64,000 bases of DNA from Bacillota bacterium (GTDB taxonomy: Bacteria; Bacillota; Sulfobacillia; JAJZYS01; JAJYTV01): the NCBI GenBank assembly GCA_021793215.1, contig JAJYTE010000006.1, forward strand, positions 1 to 64,000, given 5' to 3'. Position numbers and translations under genes: made by a program. The notes under the pieces are model-generated. The model had not been told where the DNA came from. It saw only the letters and a list, made by a program, of their open reading frames with translations, and did not search any database. Shown here piece by piece: positions 4,491 to 60,960 of this stretch (position 1 is its first letter; each line of letters opens with the position of its first letter).

Positions 4491-5453
4491 ATGGAGATCG
4501 AGATGCGCGACGTCGTTCGCGCCAGGGCGCGCATCCGCGGCCATATCTTTGCGACGCCGCTCGTCGAGGACTTCGTTCTTTCCGCGCAGCGCGGAGCGCT
4601 GGTCCAGCTGAAGATGGAGTGTTGGCAGCGAACCGGTTCGTTCAAGGTGCGGGGCGCCTTCCACCGCATGCTGAACCTGACCCTGGACGAACGGCAGCGC
4701 GGCGTCGTCGCAGTCTCAGCGGGAAACCACGCGCTGGGCGTCGCGCTTGCGGCGCGCGAACTCGGGGTGGAGGCGCTGATCGTCATGCCAGAGACCGCCT
4801 CACGCGTCAAAATAGAGGGGGTCCGCCAGTTCGGAGCCGAGGTGCTGCTGCGCGGCGAGGACTACGACGCTGCCGAACGAGCGCTGCCGCAGATCGTCGA
4901 GGAGAGCGGGCGCACGCTCGTTCACCCCTTCGAGGATCCGCTCGTCATCGCTGGTCAGGGAACGGTCGGCCTCGAGATCGCCCTCTCCGGCGCCGACATC
5001 GACATCGTGCTCGTACCGGCAGGCGGTGGCGGCCTCGCCGTCGGATCGGCGATCGCACTGAAGACGCTTCGGCCCGGCGTGCGCGTGTACGGAGTGCAGT
5101 CCGAGGCGTCTGCGCCGCTCGTCGCCGCGTTCGGTGCTGGACACCGCGTACCCGTAACCTTCGGCCCATCGCTCGCGGACGGTCTGCACGGCGACACGAC
5201 GGATCCGATGATCGAACTCGCGCTCGCGCACCTCGACGGCGTCCTGGAGGTCTCGGAGGCTGGCATCGCCCGCGCGATGCGCTACCTGTACGAGCAGCAG
5301 CGCGTCGTCGTGGAGGGCTCCGCTGCGGCGTCTGTCGCGGCAATCCTCGAGGGGGTCGCCCCGAAGGGTGCAGCGGTCGCGGTGCTGACGGGTCGCAACG
5401 TGGCGCCGGAGCTGTTCTCCCGCATCGTGGCGGGTGACGAGGCCGCGCAGTGA
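4491..5453 (+). CDS. Threonine dehydratase-like PLP enzyme (second copy)
   Basis: This 320-residue fold-type II PLP enzyme has the canonical TGSFKVRGA motif (PLP lysine Lys52), SAGNHA, and the phosphate loop AGGGGL. No C-terminal regulatory domain is present, so it looks like a catabolic threonine or serine ammonia-lyase. It is only distantly related to the divergent neighbour at 3335-4309, whose lysine motif differs, so the two probably prefer different substrates. The ATG at 4491 is preceded by gaggggagg. Its stop overlaps the start of the RDD gene by 4 nt, so the two are translationally coupled. Confidence 0.85.
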   Translation: MEIEMRDVVRARARIRGHIFATPLVEDFVLSAQRGALVQLKMECWQRTGSFKVRGAFHRMLNLTLDERQRGVVAVSAGNHALGVALAARELGVEALIVMPETASRVKIEGVRQFGAEVLLRGEDYDAAERALPQIVEESGRTLVHPFEDPLVIAGQGTVGLEIALSGADIDIVLVPAGGGGLAVGSAIALKTLRPGVRVYGVQSEASAPLVAAFGAGHRVPVTFGPSLADGLHGDTTDPMIELALAHLDGVLEVSEAGIARAMRYLYEQQRVVVEGSAAASVAAILEGVAPKGAAVAVLTGRNVAPELFSRIVAGDEAAQ

Positions 5454-5875
5454 GGCCGGCGGGTTTTCGCGAGCGCGCCCTCGCCTACGTGCTCGACGCG
5501 GCCGTCGTGGGCGCGATCGGCTGGGCCCTCGGCCTGCCGGTGGGCCTTTGGGCCGTGCTGCTCTTCGCCTACACCGCGCTTTCGCTCTGGGCGTTCTCGG
5601 GCCGCACGCCCGCCAAGATCCTGCTGCGTCTCAAGGTCGTCGGCAAACGCAGCGACAGCCTCTCCTTCTGGCAGTACGGCCTGCGCCCGCTCGTCTCGCT
5701 GCTCGAGGTCGTGCTGCTTTGCGGCGGCTTCGTCTTCGCGCTGTTCTCGCCGGAGCGGCTCGCGGTCCATGACCTGGTGCTCGGTACGCGCGTCGTGAAG
5801 GCGGGCGACGGGCGACGGCCGAGGGCACCCGCACGCAGGCGGCGTCCCGCCAAGGGGCGTTCCCGGCGCAAGTAA
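5450..5875 (+). CDS. RDD-family membrane protein
   Basis: This 141-residue protein has an N-terminal Arg-rich start followed by the family A-x-x-x-D pattern (residues 8-16) and about three hydrophobic segments (roughly 12-28, 30-47 and 76-95), ending in a strongly basic tail. RDD proteins are small integral membrane proteins of mostly unknown role; some are proposed ion transporters. The GTG start at 5450 overlaps the upstream TGA (GTGA). Co-transcription with the dehydratase gene is likely but does not explain its function. Confidence 0.75.
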   Translation: MRPAGFRERALAYVLDAAVVGAIGWALGLPVGLWAVLLFAYTALSLWAFSGRTPAKILLRLKVVGKRSDSLSFWQYGLRPLVSLLEVVLLCGGFVFALFSPERLAVHDLVLGTRVVKAGDGRRPRAPARRRRPAKGRSRRK

Positions 5876-5906: not shown

Positions 5907-5941
5907 GGAGACGAGCCGGCGGCCCGAAGGAGGCGCCTTTC

Positions 5942-6190
5942 TTGGAAAGACCGACCCTGATCATCACGTTCTGCACCGAATGAACGTACGCATCTGATGC
6001 CGCCCGTGTGGCGGAGGAGGTGGGACTCAGGTACGGGGAGGCGCTCGCGGCGATCACGCTGGTGCCGTCGCACGGCGGCGTCTTCCGCGTCACGCTTGCA
6101 GGCGAGGCGGTCTTCGACAAGGCGAAGGCCGGCCGCTTCCCCGAGGCAGGGGAGATCGTCCACCTGCTCGAACCGCGCGTCGCGGGCTAG
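5942..6190 (+). CDS. SelW/SelT/SelH (Rdx) family selenoprotein with Sec at in-frame TGA 5981-5983
   Basis: This 82-residue thioredoxin-fold protein starts at a TTG (5942) with AAGGAGG 8 nt upstream. Codon 14 is TGA, giving the motif F-C-T-E-U (Cys11, Sec14), which is the CxxU redox motif of the Rdx family. Downstream the frame keeps the family pattern: helix ARVAEEVG, then LVPSHGGVFRVTLAGEAVFDK and GRFPEAGEIV. Without Sec readthrough the reading frame would yield only 13 residues. A hairpin at 6000-6014 (5-bp stem, loop CGUGU) sits 22-26 nt past the TGA and could be the SECIS. Rdx proteins are putative thiol/selenol oxidoreductases. A thiol peroxidase gene lies close downstream on the same strand. 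Confidence 0.9.
6000..6014 (+). promoter_or_regulatory. Candidate bacterial SECIS hairpin (SelW-type gene)
   Basis: CCGCC pairs with GGCGG around the loop CGUGU. The stem starts 17 nt after the UGA and lies inside the coding sequence, as known for bacterial SECIS elements. The stem is short, so this is a proposal from position and pairing only. Confidence 0.4.
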
Positions 6191-6426
6191 ATGCCCAGAA
6201 CGTCGCGCAGCGTTCGATCGTCGAAGCCCTCGACGGCGACCCCGTTCACGACGATCGTGGGGAGGCGCGTGGCGCCCATGAACTCGAGATGGCGCCAGAG
6301 GTCAGGGTCGGCGCGCACGTCCTGAACGCGGCAACCGACGCCGTGGTCGCGGAGGAAGCGAACCGCCGCTTGGCTCGCGGCGTCCTCGGGATCGAGGTAG
6401 ATGACGACTTCCTGCAGGTACTCCAG
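6187..6426 (-). CDS. Glutaredoxin-like protein lacking active-site cysteines
   Basis: The minus-strand frame encodes about 79 residues with a thioredoxin-fold layout: beta strand VVIYLDP, helix SQAAVRFLRDHGV, strand CRVQDV, the cis-proline region RLPTIVVNG, and the closing helix DDRTLRDVLG. Where glutaredoxins have P-x-C-x-x-C this protein has P-E-D-A-A-S, so no redox dithiol is present; one Cys remains after the first helix. No ATG, GTG or TTG is well placed. A CTG at 6426 with aaggggga about 7 nt upstream is the best start, and the frame is closed by a TGA at 6445-6447. It converges on and overlaps the selenoprotein stop by 4 nt. Function unknown; the start is uncertain. Confidence 0.6.
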   Translation of the reverse strand: MEYLQEVVIYLDPEDAASQAAVRFLRDHGVGCRVQDVRADPDLWRHLEFMGATRLPTIVVNGVAVEGFDDRTLRDVLGI

Positions 6427-6521: not shown

Positions 6522-7040
6522 ATGCCGGAACTGCGCAAGGGTGTCCACACCCTGAAGGGCAACCCCCTGACCCTGGTCGGACCAAAGGTTCGTCCCGGAC
6601 AGGCGGCGCCGGATTTCACGCTGATCGACCGAGACTTCCATACGGTGACGCTGAAGGACACGCCGGCCAAGGTCCGCGTGTTCTCCGTTGTGCCGTCGCT
6701 CGACACGGGCGTCTGCGACACGCAGAGCCGCCGCTTCGAGCAGGAGGCAAAGACGTTCGGCGACAAGGCTACGTTTTACACCGTCAGCCGCGACCTGCCG
6801 TACGCCCAGCGGCGCTGGTGCGGCGCTGCCGACGCGGAGGCGATGCAGGTTCTCTCGGACAGCCGCGACCACTCCTTCGGTCCCGCGTGGGGCGTTGAGA
6901 TCGAAGAGATGGGCCTTCTCAGCCGCTCGATCTTCGTCGTCGACGGGCAGGGGATCGTGCGCTACGCGCAGTACGTGCCGGAGTTCGCCGACCTGCCGGA
7001 CTTCGACGAGGCGATTGCGGCGGTGCGCGCGCTCGTCTGA
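6522..7040 (+). CDS. tpx: Thiol peroxidase (atypical 2-Cys peroxiredoxin)
   Basis: This 172-residue protein matches Tpx: the peroxidatic cysteine is Cys65 in the segment SLDTGVCDTQSRRF and the resolving cysteine is Cys100 in RRWCGA. It reduces hydrogen peroxide and alkyl hydroperoxides in the cytosol, normally with thioredoxin as donor. The ATG at 6522 has a gaggaggg site 8 nt upstream; an in-frame start at 6474 adds residues not expected in the family. The clustering with a SelW-like selenoprotein and a glutaredoxin-like gene suggests a small redox-defence locus (inference). Confidence 0.93.
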   Translation: MPELRKGVHTLKGNPLTLVGPKVRPGQAAPDFTLIDRDFHTVTLKDTPAKVRVFSVVPSLDTGVCDTQSRRFEQEAKTFGDKATFYTVSRDLPYAQRRWCGAADAEAMQVLSDSRDHSFGPAWGVEIEEMGLLSRSIFVVDGQGIVRYAQYVPEFADLPDFDEAIAAVRALV

Positions 7041-7731: not shown

Positions 7732-9339
7732 GTGCTCGCAAGTCTACATCTGGGGGTGCGGGCCACGAGCAAGCTGGAGGCGATCGGCGACATCGAGCAG
7801 CGCGGCAGCCGACTCGCGGGTCTGCTCGACGCCATGGTGGACCCTGTGGGCGACGAGATCTCTTCGGACATCCAGAAGGTGCAGGAGCGCCTCGCAGCCC
7901 TGTACCTCGACTCGTTCCCGACGGTCACGCGCCAACTGAAGGCGTTCGGCCGGAGCGCGTTGATGCTGTTCGAGGGCGGCGTCGTCCAGCGCGGCCAAGT
8001 GGACCGCGACATCATCAGGCCGCTGCAGCGCGGAGGCGGGACGCCACCGCAGGGTATGCAGGAGATCGCGCAGAGGGTGCTTCCGACGCTCGTCGCGAAG
8101 CCGATCACGAAGTGGAGTGAGGTGGAGTCGCACTACGAGGACGGCCACCTGATCCTCTTCGTCGACGGCATCGCGGGCGCGATCGCAATCGACCAGAAGA
8201 AGATCCCGGTGCGCACGCCGAGCGCGCCGAAGTCCGAGAACGCAGTGCGCGGACCGCAGATCGGGTTCATCGAGGACCTCAAGAGCAACCTCGCGCTGCT
8301 GCGCGACCGCGTGCGCACGCACCGGATGAAGGTGCAGAATTTCCAGGTCGGGGCGCTCACCCGCACGCACGTGGCGGTCATGTACATCGACGGCATGGCG
8401 AAACCAAAGGACGTCGCGACCGTGATGGACACGGTCCAGTCCGCCCAGCCGCAGGACCTGCAGCTGATCTCCTCGATCACGGGGCTGCTGGAGCAGCGCC
8501 CGTTCTCGATCTTCCCGCAGGTCCGCATGACGGAGCGGGTCGACGAGGCTGCGCGTGCCGTGCTGCAGGGACGCCTTCTGATCATGATGCACGGCGACCC
8601 GACCTGCGCCATCTACCCTTCGACGCTCGGCGACTTCTACCGCACCATGCAGGACTACATGATGACCTTCTGGGAGTCGAGCTACATCCGGCTCATCCGG
8701 TCGATCGCCGTGCTCGTCTCCCTCTTCCTGCCGGCACTCTACGTCGCCCTCACCACCATCAACCCCGACCTTCTGCCGACGCGGCTCATGATCGTCGTCG
8801 CCGGCTCACGCGAGGGCGTGCCGTTCTCGCCGCTCGTCGAGGTCATCATCATGTTCCTGATCATCGAGTTCCTGCGCGAGGCGGCGCTGCGCATGCCTGC
8901 GCAGATGACCTCGACGCTCGGCACCGTCGGCGCCATCGTCGTCGGCACGGCGCTCGTGAAGGCGGGGATCGTCTCGGATCTGATGATCGTCATCGCGACC
9001 GTGACTGCCGTCGCCGCCTTCACCGCGCCGTCCTTCGAGATCACGTCGGTCTGGCGCATCCTGATGTGGCCGATGGCCATGATCGGCGCGGTCTACGGAG
9101 TCGTCGGCATCGTCGTGCTCGCCTTCATCGTGCTTGCGTCGCTCGCGTCCCTGGAGGTGGGCGGAAGGCCGTACCTCGATCCGCTGGTGCCGGCGAGCGG
9201 AAGTTCCGTGCGCGATACCATCCTTCGGCTGCCGATGCGCGCGCTGAGCCCCGCGGATCAAGGTCATGGCCCGCTCCCGCTGATCACGCGCTTCTTCCGG
9301 CGCGCGATGACGCGTCACCCGCGCGGTGGACTTCGGTGA
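7732..9339 (+). CDS. gerA: Spore germination protein, GerA family (A subunit)
   Basis: This 535-residue protein has a soluble N-terminal domain of roughly 250-300 residues, followed by about five to six membrane segments between about 315 and 485. Characteristic GerA-family blocks are visible, including HGDPTC, LRLIRSIAVLVSLFLPALYVA-like wording and the REAALRMP segment. GerA-type proteins form the inner-membrane germinant receptor with GerB and GerC and likely make an oligomeric ion channel. The GTG at 7732 follows gaaggtg; a GTG at 7756 is an alternative. It is the first gene of a gerA-gerC-gerB operon with 4-nt overlaps, which is strong evidence of an endospore former. Confidence 0.92.
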   Translation: MLASLHLGVRATSKLEAIGDIEQRGSRLAGLLDAMVDPVGDEISSDIQKVQERLAALYLDSFPTVTRQLKAFGRSALMLFEGGVVQRGQVDRDIIRPLQRGGGTPPQGMQEIAQRVLPTLVAKPITKWSEVESHYEDGHLILFVDGIAGAIAIDQKKIPVRTPSAPKSENAVRGPQIGFIEDLKSNLALLRDRVRTHRMKVQNFQVGALTRTHVAVMYIDGMAKPKDVATVMDTVQSAQPQDLQLISSITGLLEQRPFSIFPQVRMTERVDEAARAVLQGRLLIMMHGDPTCAIYPSTLGDFYRTMQDYMMTFWESSYIRLIRSIAVLVSLFLPALYVALTTINPDLLPTRLMIVVAGSREGVPFSPLVEVIIMFLIIEFLREAALRMPAQMTSTLGTVGAIVVGTALVKAGIVSDLMIVIATVTAVAAFTAPSFEITSVWRILMWPMAMIGAVYGVVGIVVLAFIVLASLASLEVGGRPYLDPLVPASGSSVRDTILRLPMRALSPADQGHGPLPLITRFFRRAMTRHPRGGLR

Positions 9340-10448
9340 GGCGCGTCCTCGCCGCCGCGCTCGCCATCCTGCCGCTTCTCACGGGATGCGGCAACGCCAC
9401 GTCGATCGACACGCGCGCCCTCGTCGTGGGCATCGCAGTAGACAAGGGGCAAAAGGCGGGGGAACTGCGCTACACATTCCAGGTCCCGAGCCCGCAGGCC
9501 CTCGGCGGGGGCGGGGGCGGCAGCGGCAGCGGCGGCAACAAGTTCTACTACCCGACCGCCGAGGCGCCGAGCCTCGCGTCGGCGATCTCCCTCGTCGAGG
9601 ACCGCACGAGCCGCGACATCTACCTCGGCCAGCTGAAGATCGTTCTGCTCGCGCTGGACCTGCCCCCGGCGCAACGCGACGAGTTCCTGCGCGAGGAGCA
9701 GCGCCTCGGCGAGGTCGACCACACCGAGTGGTTCGCCTTCACGAAACCCAGCGCGGCGACGGTGCTCTCGCCGCCGCCCAACCAGGAGCAACTGCCCTCG
9801 CTCTACTACTCCGTCCACTTCAACTGCAGAGCATGCCAGTCGACGTCGATGGGCGTCGAGGCGTGGAAGCTCGATCGCGACCAGATGGAACCCGGACACT
9901 CGGCATCCCTTCCGATCATCGACATCACGGACGGGCAGTACAGCATCGCCACGCTCGGCACCTACAATCCGGGTCAGGCCACCGTCGTCTTCAACGTGTC
10001 CGAGTCGGCGTACATCATGCTGGCGCTGGGCGAGATGCACAAGGGCGTCATCGAGCCCACGACGCCCCTCGGCCTCGCGGTCGTGCGCAGCCTGGGCGCC
10101 AGGACGAACCGCCGGGGGCGGGTGGACAGCCAGGGCAGGGTGCACCTCACGCTCAAGGTGAAGATGGGCGGCACGATCGCCGAGGCCCCGCACCAGGCGG
10201 ACCGCATCACGCCGGAGATCAGCCAGATGGTTTCCCAGGCGACGTCGGATGTGATCCGCACCGGGCTGGAGGAGGTCGTGCGCAAGGCGCAGGTGCACGG
10301 CGTCGATCCCTTCCGCTTCGGCCAGGCGATGTACCGGCAGAATCCGGCGGCGGTCTCGCGCCTCGGCAGTTGGCCCCAGGCGTTCTCGAAGGCCGTCGTG
10401 GAGGTCAGCGTACAGGTCGGCACCCTGCGCCAGGGCATCACCGTATGA
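9336..10448 (+). CDS. gerC: Spore germination lipoprotein, Ger(x)C family
   Basis: This 370-residue protein starts at a GTG overlapping the gerA stop. The signal peptide ends in the lipobox LLTGC, so Cys19 or so would be lipidated and the protein anchored outside the inner membrane of the spore. The Ger(x)C fold follows, with blocks such as TRALVVGIAVDKG and the C-terminal SWPQAFSKAVVEVSV. A glycine/serine-rich run at about residues 61-70 is an unusual flexible insertion. It overlaps gerB by 4 nt. Confidence 0.92.
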   Translation: MRRVLAAALAILPLLTGCGNATSIDTRALVVGIAVDKGQKAGELRYTFQVPSPQALGGGGGGSGSGGNKFYYPTAEAPSLASAISLVEDRTSRDIYLGQLKIVLLALDLPPAQRDEFLREEQRLGEVDHTEWFAFTKPSAATVLSPPPNQEQLPSLYYSVHFNCRACQSTSMGVEAWKLDRDQMEPGHSASLPIIDITDGQYSIATLGTYNPGQATVVFNVSESAYIMLALGEMHKGVIEPTTPLGLAVVRSLGARTNRRGRVDSQGRVHLTLKVKMGGTIAEAPHQADRITPEISQMVSQATSDVIRTGLEEVVRKAQVHGVDPFRFGQAMYRQNPAAVSRLGSWPQAFSKAVVEVSVQVGTLRQGITV

Positions 10449-58483: not shown

Positions 58484-59509
58484 TCAGAGGGCGCGCGCCG
58501 CGCGAGGACGCGCGCCCTCGGCGCGCCCGAGCAGGGACGAGAGGAGGGTGCCCATGGCGTCCTGCTCCGCGAGGAAGGCGTCGTGCCCCATCCGCGTCTT
58601 GAGCGTAAGGTGCTCGCCGGGCACACTTTGCGCGCGCAAGGCGCCGTCGAGCAGGGCGACGTCGTCGGCCGGGAAGAGCCAGTCGTCGCTGATGCTGATG
58701 AGATCGACGCGCGCGCCGTCGCGGACGTGCCGATCCCAGTGGAACCGGGCCATCGCCCGCGACAGAACGAGGTAGCTCCAGGCCGAGAAGCGCTCGGCGA
58801 GGCGGTTCCCATGGTGGTCGAGCCACGTCTCGAGGGCGAAGGCGCGCGGCTTTGCTTCCTCTTGCGCCTTCTGTCGGCCAAACCGCTCCCCGAAGTGACG
58901 GTCGGAGCGGTACGTGCTCATGGCGACGGCGCGGGCGGCGCGCAGGCCACCAGCCGGATCGCCGTGCGAGATCCCGAGTTCAAGCGCGAGGTGCTGCGCG
59001 TGACAGAGCGCGATCTGCAGCGGGGGCAGGCGGTCGCTTGCACCGATCGCGACGACCTGGCGGGCGGGGATGTCGCGCTCCTTCGCCCAGCAGAGCGCCT
59101 GCAGGCCGCCAAGCGACCCGCCGACGACGAGACGCAGGCGCCGCACGCCGAGCGACTGCAGGAGCCGTTCCTGGGCCCTGACCATATCCTCCACGGTGAC
59201 CTGCGGGAACGGAGTGCCGTCGGGGGCATTTCCCTCGTCGTCGGGACCCGTGCTGCCGTAGCAGCCCCCGAGTACGTTGCTCGCGATCACGAATTGCTGC
59301 GACGTGTCGATCGCCCGTCCGGGGCCGACGACGCCGTCCCACCAGCCCGCGCGGCCACCCGACGCGGCAGCGTGCGCGTCGCCCGTCAAGGCGTGGCAGA
59401 CGAGGATCGCCTCCTCGCTGGGCGTCCCCCAGGTTTCGTAGGCGATCTCCGTCGCGCGCAGGGCGCCTCCCCCCGAGAGGGGGAGGTCCCCGATGCGCAC
59501 GGTCGACAT
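58484..59509 (-). CDS. metX: Homoserine O-acetyltransferase
   Basis: This 341-residue alpha/beta hydrolase-fold enzyme has the nucleophile elbow GGSLGGLQAL, the substrate region NVLGGCYGSTGP, the acid residue in SDDWLFP and the catalytic His in MGHDAFL. It acetylates L-homoserine for direct sulfhydrylation by MetY, whose gene is just upstream in transcription. The ATG overlaps the metY stop; the pair is under the SAM riboswitch at 60849. Confidence 0.93.
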   Translation of the reverse strand: MSTVRIGDLPLSGGGALRATEIAYETWGTPSEEAILVCHALTGDAHAAASGGRAGWWDGVVGPGRAIDTSQQFVIASNVLGGCYGSTGPDDEGNAPDGTPFPQVTVEDMVRAQERLLQSLGVRRLRLVVGGSLGGLQALCWAKERDIPARQVVAIGASDRLPPLQIALCHAQHLALELGISHGDPAGGLRAARAVAMSTYRSDRHFGERFGRQKAQEEAKPRAFALETWLDHHGNRLAERFSAWSYLVLSRAMARFHWDRHVRDGARVDLISISDDWLFPADDVALLDGALRAQSVPGEHLTLKTRMGHDAFLAEQDAMGTLLSSLLGRAEGARPRAARAL

Positions 59510-60783
59510 CAGCGGGCTGCGGCGAGAGCCTGCCCCAGGTCCTCCTGCAGGTCCTCGGCGTCCTCCAGGCCGATCGAGAGGCGGACGAGGTCGTCGGGCG
59601 CGCCGGACGCGACCCGGGCCTCGGGCGACAGCTGGGCGTGGGTGGTGGTGGCGGGGTGGATGACGAGCGAGCGCGCGTCGCCGACGTTCGCGACGTGGGT
59701 GAAGAGCTTCAGGGCGTCGATGAACCGAGGTGCGGCCGTCGCACCGCCGCGCAGCCCGAATGTGATGATCGCGCCGAAGCCGTGCTCGAGGTACTGCTTC
59801 GCCTGGGCGTGCTGGGGGTGGGAGGAGAGGCCGGGGTAGTTGACCCACGCGACGTCCGGGTGCTGCGACAGCCAGGTGGCGACCGCAAGCGCGGTCGACG
59901 ATGCGCGCTCGATGCGCAGCGAGACGGTCTCAAGACCCGTGAGCAGGAGGTGCGCGTCGGCGGGACTGAGGCAGGCGCCGATGTCACGCAGGAGCTGCAC
60001 CCGAACCTTAAGGATGTACGCGAGGGCGCCGAACGACTGGGTGTAGCTGACGCCGTGGTAGGTCGGATCCGGCTCGGTCAGCTCGGGGAAGCGGCCATTC
60101 GTCCAATCGAACTTGCCGCCGTCGACGATCACGCCCGCGATGACCTGGCCGATGCCGCCGAGCCACTTCGTCGCGGAGTGGATCACGATGTCCGCGCCGT
60201 GCTCGATCGGGCGGCAAAGGTACGGAGTCGCGAAGGTGTTGTCGATCACGAACGGCACGCCGCGGCGGTGGGCAGCATCGGCGATCGCGCGGATGTCCGG
60301 GACGTCGAGCCGGGGGTTGCCGATCGTCTCGGCGTAGTAGGCGCGCGTCGTCTCGTCGAACTGCGCGTCCATCGCCTCCGCCGTGGCGTCGGCGGCGAGA
60401 CGCACCTCGATGCCGAACTTCTCGAAGGTCGCCTTCAGGAGGTTGTAGGTGCCGCCGTAGAGGTTCGGCGACGCGACGATCGACTGCCCTTGGCTGCAGA
60501 TGTTGAGGAGCGCCAGCGTGATCGCGGCCTGGCCGGAGGACGTCGCCAAGGCGCCGACGCCACCCTCGAGCGCCGCGATGCGCTCCTCGAAGGCCGCGTT
60601 CGTCGGGTTCATGATCCGGGTGTAGATGTTGCCGAACTCCTGCAGCGCGAACAGGCGTGCCGCGTGGGCGTGGTCGCGGAAGGCGTAGGCGGTCGTGCGG
60701 TAGAGGGGAACACCGACGGCACCCGTGGTCGGGTCGGGGGTCTGCCCCGCGTGGACGGCGAGCGAGTTGAAGCGAAGAGCCAT
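59509..60783 (-). CDS. metY: O-acetylhomoserine sulfhydrylase
   Basis: This 424-residue Cys/Met-metabolism PLP enzyme has the PLP lysine in IHSATKWLGG, the substrate Arg/Tyr segments YTRIMNPTNAAFEERIAALEGG, and SIGLEDAEDL. It makes homocysteine from O-acetylhomoserine and sulfide. The ATG at 60783 has aaggag upstream. It is the first gene of metY-metX, preceded by a SAM-I riboswitch and intrinsic terminator. Confidence 0.94.
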   Translation of the reverse strand: MALRFNSLAVHAGQTPDPTTGAVGVPLYRTTAYAFRDHAHAARLFALQEFGNIYTRIMNPTNAAFEERIAALEGGVGALATSSGQAAITLALLNICSQGQSIVASPNLYGGTYNLLKATFEKFGIEVRLAADATAEAMDAQFDETTRAYYAETIGNPRLDVPDIRAIADAAHRRGVPFVIDNTFATPYLCRPIEHGADIVIHSATKWLGGIGQVIAGVIVDGGKFDWTNGRFPELTEPDPTYHGVSYTQSFGALAYILKVRVQLLRDIGACLSPADAHLLLTGLETVSLRIERASSTALAVATWLSQHPDVAWVNYPGLSSHPQHAQAKQYLEHGFGAIITFGLRGGATAAPRFIDALKLFTHVANVGDARSLVIHPATTTHAQLSPEARVASGAPDDLVRLSIGLEDAEDLQEDLGQALAAAR

Positions 60784-60848: not shown

Positions 60849-60960
60849 ACCCTCTTATCTCTCAGCCCAGGGGGGCTGCAGGAATTGGCACCTTTGGCGC
60901 CGCAGCGCCGGGTTGCCGGGTTTCATCGGGCCAGTCCCTCCACCTCTCGCGATAACGGGA
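60849..60960 (-). ncRNA. SAM-I (S-box) riboswitch aptamer
   Basis: The minus-strand leader carries the S-box core in order: the P1 5' strand (GTTATC), GAGAGGTGGAGGGACTGGCC, CCCGATGAAACCCGGCAACC, GGTGCCAATTCCTGCAG and the P1 3' strand GATAAGAGGG. SAM binding favours the downstream terminator, so high methionine/SAM shuts off metY-metX. Typical of Bacillota methionine genes. Confidence 0.93.

Follow-up and report, generated by a model that had tools for sequence, protein, structure and literature searches.

The forward-strand frame at positions 5942–6190 of the window (the whole stretch of 64,000 nucleotides of DNA that was analysed) is, in our assessment almost certainly, a SelW-like (Rdx family) selenoprotein gene, in which the UGA at 5981 is decoded as selenocysteine (Sec) through a SECIS hairpin at 6000–6014. 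The gene is very probably read straight through the UGA into a small selenium-containing redox protein. Ordinary gene finding would cut it at this codon, and its recognition adds a secure selenoprotein for an order of the Bacillota. We base this on the reading frame, the family of the product, conservation in relatives, selection on the hairpin and the presence of the Sec machinery, all of which the analysis supports. The gene and its signals are:

5927–5933, forward strand: Shine-Dalgarno-like AAGGAGG, read directly, 8 nt ahead of the start codon TTG (5942–5944)
5942–6190, forward strand: SelW-like (Rdx family) gene, 82 residues with the TGA read through, stop codon TAG at 6188–6190
5972–5983, forward strand: CxxU redox motif Cys11-Thr-Glu-Sec14, solved homologues aligning Cys to the TGA
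5981–5983, forward strand: in-frame TGA, codon 14, predicted to be read as selenocysteine, at a position conserved in homologues
6000–6014, forward strand: bacterial SECIS apical stem-loop, from RNA folding, with stem 6000–6004/6010–6014 and loop CGUGU at 6005–6009

As read from the sequence, the frame contains one in-frame TGA and is otherwise open to its TAG, the read-through product of 82 residues being LERPTLIITFCTE-U-TYASDAARVAEEVGLRYGEALAAITLVPSHGGVFRVTLAGEAVFDKAKAGRFPEAGEIVHLLEPRVAG. Cys11 is encoded by TGC at 5972, and the single in-frame UGA occupies the second Cys position, as is expected of a CxxU protein. The original prediction had placed a TGA at codon 14, in the second position of a CxxC/CxxU motif, and its coordinates proved exact on re-reading; the family patterns PSHGGVFRV and GRFPEAGEI that it had named downstream of the TGA are found there, in a frame open to 6188, and the AAGGAGG-TTG start that it described exists. 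Relatives of the same family have ATG or GTG at the place where the window has TTG. When the window was searched for further read-through genes, five candidates passed the filters and only the SelW frame was convincing, as judged by eye; no match to anti-phage families was found.

That the gene encodes a protein of the SelW/Rdx type, also part of the original prediction, was borne out by matches to family models and to solved SelW-related structures. With Cys in place of Sec, the read-through protein reaches 68.5 bits with Pfam Rdx (PF10262; cut-off 22.6), in a match covering residues 6–76, on either side of the TGA, and 49.5 bits with TIGR02174 (cut-off 34.2). With NF041051, the Campylobacter-type SelTWH equivalog, it scores 72.4 bits, which is under the cut-off of 88 of a lineage-specific model that is not defining for the whole Rdx family. 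An AlphaFold2 model of the read-through protein, made from an alignment of 26 rows, has a mean pLDDT of 96.2 and a pTM of 0.86 and predicts the compact thioredoxin-like SelW fold; its best PDB matches by Foldseek are 2obk, 2oka and 2fa8 (best chains), with TMq values of 0.91–0.93, and mouse SelW (2npb) follows with a TMq of 0.66. Fold and family are shared with the Rdx structures 2obk, 2oka, 2fa8, 2ojl, 2p0g and 3dex, and the two best homologues at the residue level, 2oka (E 5.1e-12) and 2obk (E 1.4e-11), both have Cys where the window has TGA.

Conservation of the TGA was followed through order, class and phylum. Rdx is present in 13 of the 15 genomes of the order, one copy per genome, and each of the 12 unbroken copies has exactly one TGA, located at the CxxU position. 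In genome G009 the SelW gene is divided between the ends of two contigs (L091 and L092), apparently by an inserted element, and its TGA and downstream frame are intact. In the class, 51 of 154 genomes contain Rdx, in 55 match rows, 50 of which have one TGA and one has two, the remaining four being one Cys-type copy, one fragment and the two halves of the split G009 gene; the TGA is at the motif in 51 of the 55 rows and additionally in the 5' half from G009. Among the sampled genomes of the phylum, Rdx was found in 31 of 398, with one TGA in 28 rows and none in three (one Cys-type, one with Arg at the position, one fragment).

Differences between same-family copies after the TGA fall mostly on third codon positions. 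Between the copies L012 and L018 there are 5, 0 and 25 differences at codon positions 1, 2 and 3 over 67 codons, and between the window and its nearest relative (L017) there are 13, 14 and 25 over 68 codons, a pattern which suggests that the region downstream of the TGA is under purifying selection. A true stop followed by decayed downstream sequence in close relatives had been named originally as an outcome that would refute a selenoprotein; what is found in the order is the TGA and the frame retained in 12 of 12 unbroken copies.

The original prediction placed the loop of a hairpin 22–26 nt after the UGA, and RNA folding puts it at the same position, 6005–6009. Criteria for bacterial SECIS elements, as given in a review (PMC13188914), are an apical loop of 3–9 nt, a stem of 4–16 bp, a G in the first two loop positions, a distance of 16–37 nt from the UGA and an energy of −7.5 kcal/mol or lower. 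The hairpin of the window agrees with these, having a 5-nt loop, 5 bp, a G in second position, a spacing of 21 nt and an energy of −8.8 kcal/mol (21 nt) or −16.3 kcal/mol (45 nt). Folding of the single sequence was rejected as proof of a SECIS, with z values from −0.86 to −2.04 that are not significant alone, and comparative tests were used instead. All five pairs are retained in 362 of 2000 synonymous recodings of the window, and an Rfam search of the window gave a SAM riboswitch only and no match to a SECIS family. The hairpin is significant because of the relatives and not because of the window sequence alone.

For the class, removal of three duplicates from 52 left 49 distinct UGA-type segments, which had been found via protein similarity; their alignment is gapless, and RNAalifold, unaided, finds the same 5-bp hairpin in it. 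With 20 segments from other classes and phyla the set comprises 69 segments, where 96.8% of the cells are paired and 43 double-change cells were counted, against 8.5 after shuffling and no more than 11 in the slid controls. One column pair (21–33) is seen as CG, UA, GC and AU. The stem is perfect in 59 of the 69 segments; synonymous recoding predicts 10.3 (sd 2.9), and the observed number was reached in 0 of 2000 trials. In this null the stem codons were recoded according to local codon usage, for which the two longest open frames of each short locus served as the estimate. The duplicate L246 (among 19 new phylum segments), the Arg-bearing L242 (which has no CxxC) and the fragments L022, L090 and G324 were left out of the hairpin counts.

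The full stem is present in 0 of 14 Cys-type genes (null 0.04), a control that is imperfectly matched, as the protein sequence differs too (AAWMA-like versus AARVA-like); these genes come from other records than the Rdx structures. The plasmid controls comprised 14 of 38 matches, 12 of them Cys-type and two UGA-type. In a tree test the two most variable base pairs gave 1 and 2 supported independent pairs, the changes going the expected way (1.9 of 2 on average for the second pair) and being too few for a sign test or p-value. From covariation and the synonymous-codon control we conclude that UGA-type SelW genes have, 21 nt after the UGA, a 5-bp hairpin that is selected as an RNA element, with few well-supported independent events behind the covariation; the 14 Cys-type genes examined lack it.

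Absence of any Sec machinery from the genome had been named beforehand as fatal to the prediction, and the search for it turned up the full set. The source genome (G000), a 2.74-Mb draft from an uncultured member of the Bacillota with 97.66% completeness and 0.25% contamination, encodes tRNA-Sec with a UCA anticodon (69.3 bits; cut-off 47), SelA (446.5 bits), SelB (305 bits; cut-off 242.25) and SelD, the latter by two genes over the cut-off (L009, on G000:C69, and G000:C79:50489-51406) with one in-frame TGA each. One of these selD genes lies just downstream of selA and reads SG-U-GCK across its own TGA, which places another selenoprotein gene next to the machinery. All 17 SelD rows over the cut-off in the order have one TGA. 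Across the 15 genomes, SelA was found in 13, tRNA-Sec of at least 66 bits in 12, and SelD and SelB over their cut-offs in 14 each, the missing parts being mostly in incomplete assemblies. Exceptions are G009 (99% complete), which is without SelA, and G004 (95% complete), which has neither a strong tRNA-Sec nor a SelB of full score. A loss of Sec decoding in G009 alongside its broken SelW gene was considered and dropped, as only SelA is missing and tRNA-Sec, SelB and SelD are kept.

According to the mechanism that we propose, translation would begin at TTG 5942, and when the ribosome reaches the UGA at 5981, the SECIS hairpin would recruit SelB and Sec-tRNA(UCA). Sec would enter as residue 14 in place of termination, with translation going on to the TAG at 6188. 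Within the compact thioredoxin-like SelW fold, Cys11-x-x-Sec14 would constitute a selenenylsulfide/thiol-selenol redox pair. The actual insertion of Sec and a thiol oxidoreductase activity of the product are what we infer from the evidence above.

Several other explanations have to be weighed against this. If the UGA were a true stop, as the standard code has it by halting the frame at 5981, the gene would be a decaying pseudogene or encode only a 13-residue peptide, and the broken copy in G009, apparently due to an inserted element, might be seen as pointing the same way. Such a stop is at odds with the conservation of the downstream frame, where third positions account for most differences, with the same TGA in 12 of 12 unbroken copies of the order and in the 50 single-TGA rows of the class, and with a hairpin under selection. 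We consider it largely refuted and assign it a negligible probability. Another amino acid might be inserted at the UGA by suppression or a variant code, and the open frame would be compatible with this, nothing beyond it having been found in favour. The genome has tRNA-Sec(UCA), SelA, SelB and SelD, the redox motif is in every case the place where the UGA occurs, and neighbouring frames such as the PALP gene and the redoxin gene end at TGA (5451–5453 and 7038–7040, respectively), so that UGA is an ordinary stop elsewhere; this explanation is extremely improbable.

A start at GTG 6008, as automatic annotation would call it, would yield a 60-residue Rdx-like protein without CxxU. This kind of miscall had been foreseen in the original prediction: the open reading frame (6008–6190) exists, and in Thermomicrobium roseum the annotated Rdx gene likewise has its start after the UGA. 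The shortened protein would lose two features conserved in the family, its first strand and its redox motif. A start codon preceded by a strong ribosome-binding site is available at 5942, and initiation at 6008 would leave the conserved TGA and hairpin unexplained, so that we give it hardly any credence. Decoding of UGA 5981 as Sec is the explanation that we favour.

Descriptions of bacterial SelW-like CxxU proteins go back to 2005, and the gene in the window thus belongs to a known selenoprotein type. Such proteins with a bacterial SECIS have been reported in Sargasso Sea data (PMC1088965, 2005) and in complete genomes, that of Symbiobacterium thermophilum among them (PMC1794560, 2006), and are the most numerous family in a Global Ocean Sampling table (PMC2398784, 2008), while a review counts SELENOW-like PF10262 CxxU proteins among the high-confidence predictions of prokaryotic selenoproteins (PMC13188914, 2026). 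This literature places them in several phyla and ranks them with the most abundant selenoproteins of marine bacteria. For SelW of Campylobacter jejuni (CJnc60), full-length translation was shown by Ribo-seq and mass spectrometry (PMC11955535).

The protein of the window has in common with known bacterial members the domain, a single Sec in second position of CxxU, a SECIS immediately downstream and Sec machinery in the genome; it differs in that its own family has a conserved RDD/glutaredoxin-like/Tpx neighbourhood. Sec is followed by Thr in the window protein and by Gly in those relatives from the order that were read. C. jejuni SelW is likewise small with a UGA-encoded Sec but represents a distant lineage, and the window protein falls under the NF041051 cut-off. 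Minimal 5/6-bp SECIS elements of epsilon-proteobacteria, as described in PMC4607533, resemble the hairpin in having a 5-bp covarying stem and an invariant loop G shortly after the UGA, whereas the hairpin here was followed through several phyla within a single protein family, always 21 nt from the UGA.

The combination of UGA and hairpin has the specificity needed to pick out SelW genes from raw sequence. A scan of GTDB species genomes with the pattern TG[ACT]-x-x-TGA-Gly-Tyr plus hairpin yielded at least 118 stretches, and among the matches listed 118 of 118 match an Rdx model; since these hold the hairpin by construction, they are evidence of specificity only and none for the hairpin. The first 80 of the at least 118 record titles name Chloroflexi, Planctomycetes, Myxococcus and relatives, Armatimonadetes and Bacillota, and further Thermomicrobium, Egibacteraceae, Desulfuromonadales and others. 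On a plasmid of Cytobacillus spongiae (L251), whose gene table is known to be incomplete, an unlisted UGA-type SelW frame lies between selD and selA, and this arrangement is possibly a mobile Sec package.

Some variant copies were also encountered. In L242 (G296) an Arg replaces Sec (CVERGY) and there is no stop, a possible case of Sec loss, and UGA-type SelW genes form tandem pairs in L093 (G127) and L094 (G128). In genome G071, of the same class, a UxxU copy (Y-U-T-S-U-G) has TGA at both redox positions (L088:983-1210 region, minus strand; reverse-strand positions 992–1219; the contig is L155, of MAG TL1-3.bin6), and its sole hairpin would sit 30 nt from the first UGA. A diselenide SelW was considered here; UxxU is 1 of 118 among the matches listed and the contig title gives a coverage of 2.5, so that a base error is possible.

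The genes flanking SelW in the window point to a redox context:

5450–5875, forward strand: RDD-family protein, conserved upstream neighbour (PF06271, 53.2 bits)
6187–6426, reverse strand: glutaredoxin-like gene convergent with SelW, lacking CxxC and probably starting at CTG (PF00462, 23.0 bits, marginally above the cut-off of 22.9)
6522–7040, forward strand: thiol peroxidase/redoxin (Tpx-like) neighbour (PF08534, 76.4 bits)

SelW and the glutaredoxin-like gene terminate on a common CTAG (6187–6190). The latter probably starts with CTG where some relatives have GTG or TTG, and its product has lost CxxC, with one Cys retained in relatives and none there in the window copy (YLDPEDAAS). The conserved order is PALP, RDD, SelW facing the glutaredoxin-like gene, and thiol peroxidase; all four neighbours lie within 1.5 kb of SelW in the window and in L012, L013, L017, L018, L019 and L020. 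None of the four was found at five further loci of the order, L011, L014, L015 and L021 (flanks on both sides) and L016 (less flank). The CxxU motif, the fold and the neighbours argue for a thiol-redox role of SelW, and the conserved thiol peroxidase suggests a role in peroxide/thiol defence. In a more speculative reading, which we regard as rather unlikely, these genes would form a small redox cassette with SelW as its selenium-dependent member, passing electrons to its neighbours or being recycled through them; if true, this would provide a concrete function for bacterial SelW. The conserved neighbourhood is a testable lead on this function.

Two further features of the window were noted. 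The SAM riboswitch (60852–60958, reverse strand; 82.9 bits, Rfam) lies ahead of a minus-strand ORF at 59509–60783, which looks like a putative sulfhydrylase gene. At 7741–10445 on the forward strand, GerA and GerAC spore-germination proteins are encoded (PF03323, 429.6 bits; PF25198; PF05504), fitting a spore-forming member of the Bacillota.
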